Below are positions 42,535-46,487 of a stretch of DNA of 64,000 nucleotides, piece by piece. The first letter of the stretch is position 1. Each line of letters starts with the position of its first letter. A model generated the notes under the pieces. It did no database searches, was not told the DNA's origin, and worked only from the letters and a program-made list of their open reading frames with translations. The translations under genes were made by a program, and so were the position numbers. The stretch comes from Spirochaetaceae bacterium (GTDB taxonomy: Bacteria; Spirochaetota; Spirochaetia; Treponematales; Treponemataceae): NCBI GenBank assembly GCA_017936665.1, contig JAGBFB010000006.1, positions 62,001 to 126,000 on the forward strand. Direction: 5' to 3'.

Positions 42535-43239
42535 TTAAAAATTTTCTAACATATTGATAACTGTTTGTCCACTGATTTTTGCAGCAGTTTCTTTGTTAAA
42601 AAAATATTCGCCTTCTACGCCGTCATCAGCAGAATCTGAAATTGAACGAATTATTACAAATGGTATTTTGTGTAAAAAACAAGTGTGTGCAATAGCTGTT
42701 CCTTCCATTTCAACGCAAAAAGGATTACAGTTTGAAATAATTTTTTGTTTTATGGTTTTATCAGAAACAAAAACATCCCCAGAAGCAACTCTTCCTTTGA
42801 AAACATTAGAATTATTTTCTGAAACAAAAGATTTTTCTGCTAAATTGATTAAATTTTCATCAGCATTAAAGAAAGTTGGCATTCCAGGAATTGTACAGAT
42901 AGGATCTCCAAAAGAACTTGCGTCAGCATCGTGATAAACACAATCTGTAGAAATTACTATATCGAGAGGTTTTAATTCTTTTGCCATGGCTCCTGCAATT
43001 CCTGTATTGATAATATGAGTAACATCAAATTTAACAATCAAAAGTTGTGCACAAAGGGCAGCATTTACTTTTCCAATTCCGCTTTGCACAACAACACAGT
43101 CTTTGCCATTTATGCTTCCTTCAAAAAAGATTAGATGTGAAAATTCTGTTTCTTTTTTATTTTTCATTAAAGAGCAAAGATTTTGAATTTCTATATCCAT
43201 TGCTCCAATTATACCGAATTTTACTTTGTTTTGATTCAT
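42535..43239 (-). CDS. mtnN: 5'-methylthioadenosine/S-adenosylhomocysteine nucleosidase
   Basis: 234 aa, removes adenine from S-adenosylhomocysteine and methylthioadenosine. Family segments: FGIIGAMDIEIQNL, CVVVQSGIGKVNAALCAQLL, INTGIAGAMAKELKPLDIVI, and FCVEMEGTAIAHTC with the catalytic Glu, then IRSISDSADD with the catalytic Asp. AGGAG lies before the ATG. It is the first gene of mtnN-luxS-birA. Confidence 0.95.
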   Translation of the reverse strand: MNQNKVKFGIIGAMDIEIQNLCSLMKNKKETEFSHLIFFEGSINGKDCVVVQSGIGKVNAALCAQLLIVKFDVTHIINTGIAGAMAKELKPLDIVISTDCVYHDADASSFGDPICTIPGMPTFFNADENLINLAEKSFVSENNSNVFKGRVASGDVFVSDKTIKQKIISNCNPFCVEMEGTAIAHTCFLHKIPFVIIRSISDSADDGVEGEYFFNKETAAKISGQTVINMLENF

Positions 43240-43325
43240 GATTTTCTCCTATACGCTTAATTTTTCATATAAATGTAAATTATGTCAATATTTGCAAAAA
43301 AATACATTAAATGCAACATTTTTTA

Positions 43326-43419
43326 TTGACATTATTATCACTTTTTGTTAGTATAACCATAACAATATTGTATTACAAAGAGCCGCTTTTTTCTCCTCCT
43401 TTTGCGGCTCTTTTTTTTT
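43326..43419 (+). ncRNA. Predicted small RNA with anti-Shine-Dalgarno terminator loop
   Basis: TTGACA (43326-43331), 17-bp spacer and TAGTAT (43349-43354) predict a start near 43361. A terminator follows at once: AAAGAGCCGC pairs with GCGGCTCTTT (stem core 43380-43386 with 43404-43410) and then nine T (43411-43419). The transcript would be about 60 nt. Its 17-nt loop contains CTCCTCC (43393-43399), able to pair with GGAGG ribosome-binding sites. The 5' part has the palindrome ACAATATTGT. No plus-strand gene lies upstream that would need this terminator. Family unknown. Confidence 0.55.
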
Positions 43420-43426
43420 GTCTTTA

Positions 43427-44167
43427 TCATTCTAGCATATCTTTAAGTTTTTCTCTCTCTTTTTCAATATATTTTTTAAGATTTTCTGTTAAAGGTGTTT
43501 TTTCAGACTTTAGAAAAAAGAAAAAATTTATTCTATCTTTTATTTCTTCGTTTCGATTTCTTATAGAATTTTTTAATGCTTCATATTTTATAACAATTTT
43601 ATGTTCATCAGCAAATTTTTTAATTTTTGATAAAATGTGTATTGAATAAAACAAATCAATTGTAAAAATTCCGTAATAAAAGCCTACTAAAAAAGTAAAA
43701 CTCAAATTTTTAGAAAGCCAGGATACTGCATCATTTATATAAGGTTCTATAAAGATATAATAAAAAACACTTAATAAAAACCAAAAAAAAGTAAATTGTG
43801 GACAAATTATACCTTGAATATTGCCTTTTAGTTTTGAATAATCCCAAAGTTTTACCTTCATACCTTTTATAAAAATTATTCCTGCTATATATTCTACAAA
43901 GGTAATAACTATAGCCATAATTCCAAATAAAACAAAATGCTGTATTGTCAAATTTGGGATAAAATTAAGATTAATTTTTGATAAAAAATATAGAATGCAA
44001 AGTACAAATCCATACAAGGGAAGATATGGACCTCGCAAAAATCCAGGATTTATCCATTTATGATTAGGATTAGAAGATGAAAAATATTTTCTAAAAAAAA
44101 GTTCTATTATCCATCCTATAATGCTACCAACATAAAATAAAAATGCTAAAGTTATAAATAAATTCAT
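43427..44167 (-). CDS. CmpB-type membrane protein (putative ABC-transporter type IV, PF06541)
   Basis: 246 aa with about six membrane helices. Family pattern: GSIIGWIIELFFRKYF, then NPGFLRGPYLPLYGFVLCIL, and LWDYSKLKGNIQGIICPQFT. A basic cytoplasmic tail of about 55 residues follows. The family is annotated as a putative ABC transporter permease but its role is not established. No ATPase gene is adjacent. The gene has a predicted leaderless start. Confidence 0.8.
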   Translation of the reverse strand: MNLFITLAFLFYVGSIIGWIIELFFRKYFSSSNPNHKWINPGFLRGPYLPLYGFVLCILYFLSKINLNFIPNLTIQHFVLFGIMAIVITFVEYIAGIIFIKGMKVKLWDYSKLKGNIQGIICPQFTFFWFLLSVFYYIFIEPYINDAVSWLSKNLSFTFLVGFYYGIFTIDLFYSIHILSKIKKFADEHKIVIKYEALKNSIRNRNEEIKDRINFFFFLKSEKTPLTENLKKYIEKEREKLKDMLE

Positions 44168-44232: not shown

Positions 44233-45411
44233 ATGTTTGGACTTCTACTTGCTTTAATTTATCTATCTTTTATTAGTTTAGGTTTACCAGATGCCTTGTT
44301 AGGTTCTGCTTGGCCAATTATCCACGAAGAATTAAATGTTCCAATTTCTTATGCTGGAATAATTTCTATGATTATTACTGCTGGAACAATTGTTTCTAGC
44401 TTTTTTAGCGATAAAGTAATTAGAAAATTTGGAACAGGATTAGTTACTGCAATAAGTGTTGCAATGACTGCTTTTGCGATTTTAGGATTTTCCATTTCTT
44501 CAAAATTTTGGATGCTTTGTCTTTTGAGTATTCCTTTTGGATTAGGTGCAGGTTCTGTTGATGCTGCTTTGAACAACTTTGTTGCATTGCACTATAAAGC
44601 TCATCATATGAGTTGGCTTCATTGTTTTTGGGGGATTGGTGCAACTTTAGGTCCTGTAATAATGGGGCAATGTTTAGTAAATGGCAAACATTGGACAACT
44701 GGATACGAAATTGTAGGCTTTTTACAGATAGGATTAGCTGTAATTCTTTTTTGCAGTTTATTTCTATGGAAAAAATTTGATTCAGATAATAAAGATAAGC
44801 AAGAAAATCATAAAACTTTATCATTTATAGAATTGTTAAAATTACCTAAGGCAAAATCTGCTTTAATCGGATTTTTTTGCTACTGTGGATTAGAATTTTC
44901 AACTGGATTATGGGGAGCAAGTTACATGGTTCTTCAAAGACAGGTTGAACCAGAAATTGCAGCAAAGTGGATTTCATTGTTTTATTTTGGAATTACTTTT
45001 GGAAGATTTCTCAGTGGATTTATAACGATGAAACTTTCTTCAAAAAATATGGTTCGTTTGGGGCAATTTGTTTTACTTTGTGGAATTGTCATTGTTATTT
45101 TATCTTTACAAAATTATCTTTTACCAATTGGATTTTTTCTAATTGGGTTGGGATGTGCTCCAATTTATCCAAGTATGCTTCATTCTACTCCAGAAAACTT
45201 TGGGAAAGATGTATCCCAATCAATTATGGGAAAACAAATGGCAGCCGCTTATGTAGGTTCAACTTTTATGCCTCCAATAATAGGATTTTTTGTAGATAAT
45301 ATTACTCCAAAACTTTTCCCAGTGATTTTATTTATTATTCTTGGATTAATGTTTTTTATGACAGAGAGTCTTTACAGATTTTCCTCCAAAAAGGAAAAGA
45401 TTTCAGAATAG
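44233..45411 (+). CDS. MFS transporter
   Basis: 392 aa with twelve membrane helices in two halves. The N-terminus LSFISLGLPDALLGSAWPII and the loop FSDKVIRKFGTG are typical of the sugar/FucP-like branch of the major facilitator superfamily. The second half starts after the hydrophilic loop around DNKDKQENHK. Substrate unknown. Its last 40 bp overlap the end of the converging hydrolase gene. Confidence 0.85.
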   Translation: MFGLLLALIYLSFISLGLPDALLGSAWPIIHEELNVPISYAGIISMIITAGTIVSSFFSDKVIRKFGTGLVTAISVAMTAFAILGFSISSKFWMLCLLSIPFGLGAGSVDAALNNFVALHYKAHHMSWLHCFWGIGATLGPVIMGQCLVNGKHWTTGYEIVGFLQIGLAVILFCSLFLWKKFDSDNKDKQENHKTLSFIELLKLPKAKSALIGFFCYCGLEFSTGLWGASYMVLQRQVEPEIAAKWISLFYFGITFGRFLSGFITMKLSSKNMVRLGQFVLLCGIVIVILSLQNYLLPIGFFLIGLGCAPIYPSMLHSTPENFGKDVSQSIMGKQMAAAYVGSTFMPPIIGFFVDNITPKLFPVILFIILGLMFFMTESLYRFSSKKEKISE

Positions 45412-46487
45412 TATGCTTCTAAAAAAGTATCTTTGCTATTAAAAGTATCATGTTCTAGGTGAGGCATAAAAATTATTTTTGTATTTCCTGTTCGTTTTGC
45501 AAATCTTTCTTGTTCTTTTGGACTTACTAAATTATCTTTTTCTGCCTGAAAAATTAATATTGGAATGTTTACTTTTTTTAGTTGCTTTGGTTTAAAAATA
45601 TCGCTTGTGGCTTGGAGGGCTGCATCTACCCAAGAAAATGTTGCTCCGTTTGTTTGATAATAAATATTTTCATTTCGTAAATCTGAAACATACTGGTATC
45701 TTGCTTTGGATTTTGTAGAAGTTTTTTTAATATCAACTTTTTCATTTGGGATAAATTCTTGATGGTCAAAAGCAAATGAAGCTCCTTTGTTAAATCCGAT
45801 GGCTGTATTTACAAATGCTTTTATTATAGGTTTTGGAATTCCTAAAAGATTTATTCCCATCATTGGGGCATTCAAAATTGCTCCATCAAAATATTCTGGG
45901 TAAGATTCAATTAAAAGAGAGGCAACGCATCCGCCCATAGAATGTGCAAAAAGAAAAATAGGTTTATTTTCAGAATTTGGAATAAGAATTTCTTTGTAAA
46001 TTAAAGAAGCATCTTCGATGTAAGTTTCAAAATTGTCAATATGAACTTTTGATAAACTATCTTTTATTTCTCTTGAAGAAAAACCATGCCCCCGTTGGTC
46101 GTAACGAACAACATTATATCCTTGTGTTAAAAAATAATAAGTAATCTCATCAAATTTTTTTGTAAAGCCAGTAAAGCCGTGAATCAATAAAATCGTTCCT
46201 TTGGTTTCTGGTAGAAAAAAAGTTTCGTAATAAATTTGATTTTGGTCAGGAGTTTTTATAAATCCAGTTTTAATGCAAGAATCCAAAAAAGGTTGTGCAA
46301 CATTTTGCATTTGAATATAAAAAAGTTCTTCTCTAAAAATATTTAGGTTTTTATTATTCTTTTCATAATCTATTGTTACTTTATTTAAAGGTTTACTTGC
46401 AAAACAAGAAGAAAAAGTAAAAAAGATTGCGACGGAAAGAAAAATTGCTTTGTATAATTTTATAGAAAAATGTGTATTTTGAAACAT
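45372..46487 (-). CDS. Alpha/beta hydrolase, lysophospholipase-like, probable lipoprotein
   Basis: 371 aa. The N-terminal hydrophobic stretch ends in FSSC, a plausible spirochaetal lipobox. The hydrolase core shows GTILLIHGFTGFTKKFDE (oxyanion region), VVRYDQRGHGFSS and the nucleophile elbow FAHSMGGCVASLL; the late MPHLEHDTF would supply the catalytic His. It resembles monoacylglycerol lipases / lysophospholipases. GAGGA lies before the start. Its tail overlaps the MFS gene by 40 bp on the opposite strand. Confidence 0.87.
   Translation of the reverse strand: MFQNTHFSIKLYKAIFLSVAIFFTFSSCFASKPLNKVTIDYEKNNKNLNIFREELFYIQMQNVAQPFLDSCIKTGFIKTPDQNQIYYETFFLPETKGTILLIHGFTGFTKKFDEITYYFLTQGYNVVRYDQRGHGFSSREIKDSLSKVHIDNFETYIEDASLIYKEILIPNSENKPIFLFAHSMGGCVASLLIESYPEYFDGAILNAPMMGINLLGIPKPIIKAFVNTAIGFNKGASFAFDHQEFIPNEKVDIKKTSTKSKARYQYVSDLRNENIYYQTNGATFSWVDAALQATSDIFKPKQLKKVNIPILIFQAEKDNLVSPKEQERFAKRTGNTKIIFMPHLEHDTFNSKDTFLEAYYSEIFSFLEENL

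Follow-up and report, generated by a model that had tools for sequence, protein, structure and literature searches.

The locus examined here raises the question of whether a promoter-like sequence and an intrinsic terminator, placed together in a gap between two genes, encode a small RNA (sRNA), or whether a chance promoter merely adjoins an ordinary terminator. The window (the whole stretch of DNA that was analysed, 64,000 nt) lies in a Treponemataceae genome of 2.58 Mb in 43 contigs. Within it, a gap of 187 nt separates two minus-strand genes: the divergent neighbour pfs (MTA/SAH nucleosidase; 42535..43239; Pfam PF01048), which is followed by luxS and a biotin-ligase-family gene, and a convergent gene (43427..44167) that belongs to the ABC_trans_CmpB family (Pfam PF06541). 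The predicted sRNA unit is on the plus strand of this gap.

Layout of the unit and comparison with chance

Two TGCAA boxes, 19 nt apart (43293..43317), constitute an upstream element that is kept in type I relatives, and are followed by a sigma-70-type promoter (43326..43354) with a -35 box (TTGACA, 43326-43331), a 17-nt spacer, and a -10 box (TAGTAT, 43349-43354); relatives of several genera have a promoter at the equivalent position. The predicted sRNA (~59 nt, or ~60 nt in round figures; 43361..43419) has a start inferred from this promoter and an end inferred from the T run. It would comprise a short unstructured leader (~16 nt, 43361..43376), in which the (C)AGCAGCAA motif of relatives is degenerate, and a 10-bp terminator stem-loop (43377..43413), supported by the fold, a terminator survey, and covariation. 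The stem arms AAAGAGCCGC (43377-43386) and GCGGCTCTTT (43404-43413) enclose a 17-nt loop, TTTTTTCTCCTCCTTTT (43387..43403; also given as UUUUUUCUCCUCCUUUU), with the core CTCCTCC (43393-43399), where UCCUCCUUU is the conserved motif. The nine-T run occupies 43411..43419, and its first three T are able to pair with the AAA of the stem. The sequence-only reading had described a TTGACA/TAGTAT promoter and a strong terminator with nine T, and the sequence is as described. Its statement that no upstream plus-strand gene needs the terminator also held, because the upstream neighbour, pfs, is divergent. A small peptide was considered as the product and rejected: the short RNA has no ATG, and a 112-aa open reading frame (ORF) across the site starts upstream of the promoter.

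The 59-mer has a predicted folding energy of -16.0 kcal/mol, compared with a shuffle mean of -4.8 (z -5.3; 0 of 200 shuffles equally good), and the 17-nt loop is wholly unpaired in the predicted fold. The promoter matches the consensus at 10 of 12 positions, which is not significant by itself (p ~0.13 for the 95 nt upstream, by shuffling); a 14-kb scan found 56 promoter-like sites against 63 expected. The DNA is AT-rich, and the promoter match alone is therefore within chance. CCTCC (CCUCC in RNA) occurs in the loop of only one of 39 intrinsic terminators, the window's own, in the 402 kb of this genome that were scanned (loci L160-L179 plus the window, to which all own-genome statistics refer, rather than the whole genome). 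The promoter alone is thus unremarkable and the loop unusual, and it is the comparative evidence that decides that the site is more than chance: conservation of the whole promoter-hairpin unit in relatives is not given by chance.

Conservation of the unit in the Treponema order

Used as a DNA query against 59 related genomes, the 187-nt gap identified matching units in its own genus and in genus g9, each made up of a promoter, a short leader, and a hairpin that has another stem sequence but the identical loop (TTTTCTCCTCCTTT). In two genomes (G001 and G002) the unit is flanked by a GMP-synthase-like and a DUF523-like gene, as judged by ORF reading, and in a third (G029) it has the window's arrangement, with a divergent pfs. 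A pattern search turned up many further hairpins of this kind. A covariance model was seeded with five hairpins from genera g3, g4, and g15, with the window excluded. The window site is the sole match to this model in its genome (37.6 bits, E 5.7e-6). At E <1e-5 the model has 97 matches, which are spread over 90 of the 274 Treponemataceae genomes; with E up to 0.1, there are matches in 201 of the 274. Across the order, 253 of 394 genomes and 77 of 92 genera are matched at E up to 1e-3. A phylum-wide scan gave few matches outside the order, and these were weak apart from a handful.

The seeds were picked by their loop, such that loop conservation among model matches is partly built in; the promoter, the synteny, and a scrambled-loop control are free of this bias. 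The control model had identical stems and a scrambled pyrimidine loop; it was substituted for a reversed-loop control, discarded because CCTCCTC still includes the motif. The control gave only four matches at <1e-5, all at true members, and none of its own. At 1e-3 it matched 41 genomes, mostly at the same places with ~27 bits less. Because the control finds generic terminators in the range of E 1e-4 to 1e-3, counts in that range are upper bounds; model matches are trusted from ~36 bits upward, and weaker ones are a mixture. There is no model match in 73 of the 274 Treponemataceae genomes, and a reduced genome of 1.1 Mb (G021) lacks a convincing copy, its weak matches not being CCUCC hairpins. 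On these grounds, the RNA may be dispensable in some genomes, or copies may have been missed by the model.

Across 89 distinct rows, 99.7% of cells are paired, and two-sided changes occur in all nine pairs. The covariation score is 0.986, vs. 0.195 when shuffled and <=0.19 with the partner slid; the alignment was fitted to the tested structure and hence leans toward it, but the slid controls use identical rows. There are 48 distinct inner stem words among the 89 members, and their loops carry TCCTCCTTT in 79 cases and CCTCC in 87. Selection preserves both the stem pairing and the loop letters, and the anti-Shine-Dalgarno (anti-SD) loop is the best conserved part of the unit.

The loop copies the anti-SD tail of 16S rRNA (UUUUCUCCUCCUUUU). 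The 16S rRNA 3' end used for comparison (GGAUCACCUCCUUU) was taken from eight relatives, the window's own 16S end being missing from its assembly. The Treponemataceae loop stays UCCUCCUUU, and other families of the order carry UCACCUCCUUU; in family f5, loops of this latter type have an 11-nt identity with the 16S rRNA tail. The earlier claim that the loop has CUCCUCC, complementary to GGAGG, is thereby upheld and extended to a match with the 16S tail in other families.

Gene context was compared in 86 members, of which 67 have a divergent gene upstream, and thus read-through does not account for the hairpin; in 39 of the 86 the divergent gene is pfs. The strand of the downstream gene is mixed (54 vs. 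32), and the convergent ABC_trans_CmpB gene is not kept at the equivalent place in relatives. Because the downstream gene varies, the unit is not an mRNA leader, and it is more than the terminator of a convergent gene. The latter alternative holds that the hairpin is only a (bidirectional) terminator of the convergent gene at 43427..44167, with the promoter present by chance. In its favour, the convergent stop codon is 8 nt from the hairpin, several relatives have a convergent gene ending at or inside the hairpin, and the promoter by itself is within chance. Against it, the long T run faces the plus direction, and only TTTG follows the stem in the minus direction; the convergent gene varies between genera (it belongs to ABC_trans_CmpB here and codes for a Hydrolase_4 protein in ten others) whereas promoter and loop persist; a co-directional gene replaces the convergent one in 18 members; ordinary terminators of this genome are without such a loop; and termination requires no particular loop letters. 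We consider this alternative unlikely, although weak termination of the convergent gene could be an additional function of the hairpin.

A second alternative, that the RNA is the leader or attenuator of a downstream plus-strand gene and the hairpin a regulated terminator, finds some support in genus g4: there, an alpha/beta hydrolase gene on the hairpin's own strand is often present, with its start 3-220 nt further on (18 members). However, the gene that follows the hairpin is oriented against it in the window, as it is in 31 further members, and no downstream family is common to all genera; the gene orientation in the window already contradicts this reading, which is accordingly rated very unlikely. 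The window also has a hydrolase gene (45372-46487), and its synteny with the hydrolase beside relatives' hairpins is too weak to claim. The sequence-only reading would have been refuted had the hairpin been conserved only as a minus-strand terminator without the promoter. This was not seen: promoter and hairpin travel together across many genera, while the 3' gene changes identity and strand. The reading of a ~60-nt sRNA is therefore supported by comparison, its transcription being inferred.

Predicted mode of action and relation to known RNAs

We infer that the unit probably specifies a free-standing, Hfq-independent sRNA that blocks Shine-Dalgarno (SD) sites in the manner of the cuckoo/αr14 RNAs and RepG. 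The sequence, its conservation and covariation, the 16S mimicry, and the lack of a detectable Hfq are shown; its transcription, the ends of the transcript, the binding of targets, and the sign of the regulation are inferred. In the proposed mechanism, RNA polymerase would start near 43361 and stop in the T run at 43419, producing a ~59-nt RNA that is hardly more than its own terminator hairpin. This hairpin would display the copy of the 16S anti-SD as an open 17-nt loop, which would pair with SD sequences of the AAAGGAGGAG type in competition with the 30S subunit. Translation initiation would be lowered on mRNAs with strong SDs, and hence on a subset of mRNAs only, and the action would proceed without Hfq.

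For three SDs of this genome that are strong or good (from pfs, an ftsZ-like gene, and a lipoprotein gene), predicted duplexes with the loop have energies of -11 to -17 kcal/mol and are stronger than those of the 16S tail at the same sites. GGAGG leaders precede 28 of 283 called genes (~10%); consequently, the set of sRNA targets would be a subset of genes. Signal-like genes (secreted or lipoprotein) account for 10 of the 28 genes with GGAGG leaders vs. 21 of the 255 others (p 2e-4). This enrichment is exploratory: it covers the 402 kb of this genome, and the gene starts and signal-peptide/lipobox-like calls are heuristic. Hfq was not detected in any of 12 genomes, in searches for which the positive controls worked; this agrees with the withdrawal of the name hfq from a Borrelia gene (PMC10319736). 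Given the open loop, the duplex energies, the ~10% of genes with GGAGG leaders, and the lack of a detected Hfq, the RNA is read as an Hfq-independent ribosome competitor at strong SDs. Earlier it had been suggested that such an RNA could broadly block mRNAs with strong ribosome-binding sites, and that leaderless mRNAs would escape. The first claim is narrowed to a subset of mRNAs, the block itself being inferred, and the second remains an inference; there are no expression or target data for either.

It might instead be argued that the RNA acts as a decoy, drawing off a protein that binds the 16S 3' tail (e.g., the 16S maturation factors Era or YbeY), rather than as an sRNA that pairs with mRNA. 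The loops are indeed copies of the 16S tail, and those of the order's other families (UCACCUCCUUU) are exact ones. Era reads the 16S GAUCACC; however, the Treponemataceae letters upstream of CCUCC (UCUCCUCC) differ from that sequence, whereas the SD-pairing part (CCUCCUUU) is retained, and many leaders carry extra copies of CCUCC, as pairing would predict. A decoy is thus improbable, and pairing with mRNA remains the preferred reading.

Two known systems offer parallels. The αr14/cuckoo RNAs of Alphaproteobacteria (SmelA075/099, NfeR1) have an invariant anti-SD loop, freely varying stems, and three or more CCUCCUCCC hairpins (PMC3927594; PMC10746234); the CcsR1-4 RNAs of Rhodobacter are placed near this family. 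The Treponema RNA is alike in that its stems vary between members and its hairpin loop, which is unpaired, holds an anti-SD motif. One relative (locus L012, around 1430-1560; G027) also has two tandem hairpins of this kind, with the loops CTCTCCTCCTTT and TTTCTCCTCCTTT, an arrangement that resembles a multi-hairpin cuckoo RNA. Unlike the αr14 RNAs with their three or more hairpins, the window has a single CUCCUCC hairpin that is the terminator itself; the Treponema loops are (U)CUCCUCCUUU or UCACCUCCUUU rather than CCUCCUCCC; the phylum is another, with no sign of shared descent; and an Rfam scan of the window site gave no match related to αr14/cuckoo. The RepG RNA of Helicobacter pylori has a C/U-rich terminator loop by which it pairs with G-rich sequence in its target leader (PMC8295292). 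The setting is Hfq-free in H. pylori and, as far as detected, in the 12 genomes examined here. The Treponema RNA shares the C/U-rich loop on an intrinsic terminator, for which the role of pairing site is inferred and energies are computed only. RepG differs in targeting a homopolymeric G repeat in one leader, whereas the Treponema loop, as an anti-SD copy, would reach many leaders, and in having an additional stem-loop. C-rich-loop sRNAs of Firmicutes (RsaE/RoxS, csRNAs, LhrC) block SD sites via unpaired UCCC/CCUCC motifs, but they are longer RNAs that differ in sequence and structure, and no Rfam match ties them to the window site. By analogy, the Treponema RNA most likely resembles αr14/cuckoo and RepG in its working but belongs to neither, having one hairpin, another loop, and another phylum.

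At the window site, every Rfam 15 family stays below its gathering cut-off, and nothing credible was found at E up to 10 (best score: Yfr10, 21.5 bits vs. 43 needed), and there is no Rfam 15 match at the hairpins of twelve relatives' loci. Within the open-licence literature, searches on Treponema sRNAs and on anti-SD terminator loops yielded no account of this RNA. We therefore favour the view that this is an unreported sRNA family, widely conserved in the Treponema order, with its transcription inferred. A spirochete transcriptome paper names a single experimentally characterised Treponema riboregulator, a TPP riboswitch (PMC10319736). If most genera of the order share a conserved sRNA family that is simple to spot, it would open a way into post-transcriptional control there, and would provide a natural test case for how a minimal hairpin that copies the mRNA-reading tail of the ribosome could select targets.

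Promoter classes and neighbouring elements

In the short-leader, pfs-linked class, which spans many genera, TTGAC(A/T)-N17-TATAAT-like elements occur ~19-27 nt before the hairpin. TGCRAA boxes precede the -35 box, with spacings of 9, 10, or 19 nt, and GCRA words are abundant upstream of 25 relatives (55 observed vs. 6 expected). In the 402 kb of its own genome, the two-box array of the window is the only such array followed by a promoter. With their 9/10- or 19-nt spacing, the boxes, which lie shortly before the -35 box, are one or two turns of the helix apart. These boxes might bind a regulator or serve as an UP-like element for both the sRNA and pfs. The motif AGCAGCAA is near the expected 5' end in the leaders of 32 of the 39 pfs-linked members (e.g., L006, L035, and L101); its possible roles include a second seed, a stability element, or a feature of the start site. 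A dedicated circuit with pfs was considered and is unsupported: the SD of the window's pfs pairs with the loop at -11.2 kcal/mol, but across 24 linked relatives the median is -8.5 for the loop vs. -8.6 for the 16S tail.

In a second class, seen in genera that include g3, g15, and g20, the TTGAC-type promoter is replaced by TGTAAC, which stands ~60-90 nt ahead of the hairpin and is followed after a 17-nt spacing by a GTT/TTT stretch. This promoter is likely of ECF type, an inference from sequence alone. The leader often contains a further CCUCC copy (ACCUCCUUU), and some members are divergent from an OmpA-family gene. Loci of this class include L023, L049, L053, L058, L074, L080, and L084, among others. 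Some genomes, such as G016 and G032, have both classes. A bolder reading, which we offer only as a possibility, is that Treponematales possess a network of sRNAs that mimic the 16S tail and compete globally with the 30S subunit, without Hfq; one class, divergent from pfs, would be under the housekeeping sigma factor, and another, with doubled anti-SD motifs, under a stress (ECF-like) promoter, and jointly they would tune mRNAs with strong SDs, many of them for envelope proteins. At one relative's locus (L021, 840-960), the Rfam TD-2 RNA is ~500 nt upstream of the family member, close to its hairpin, and is a separate element.
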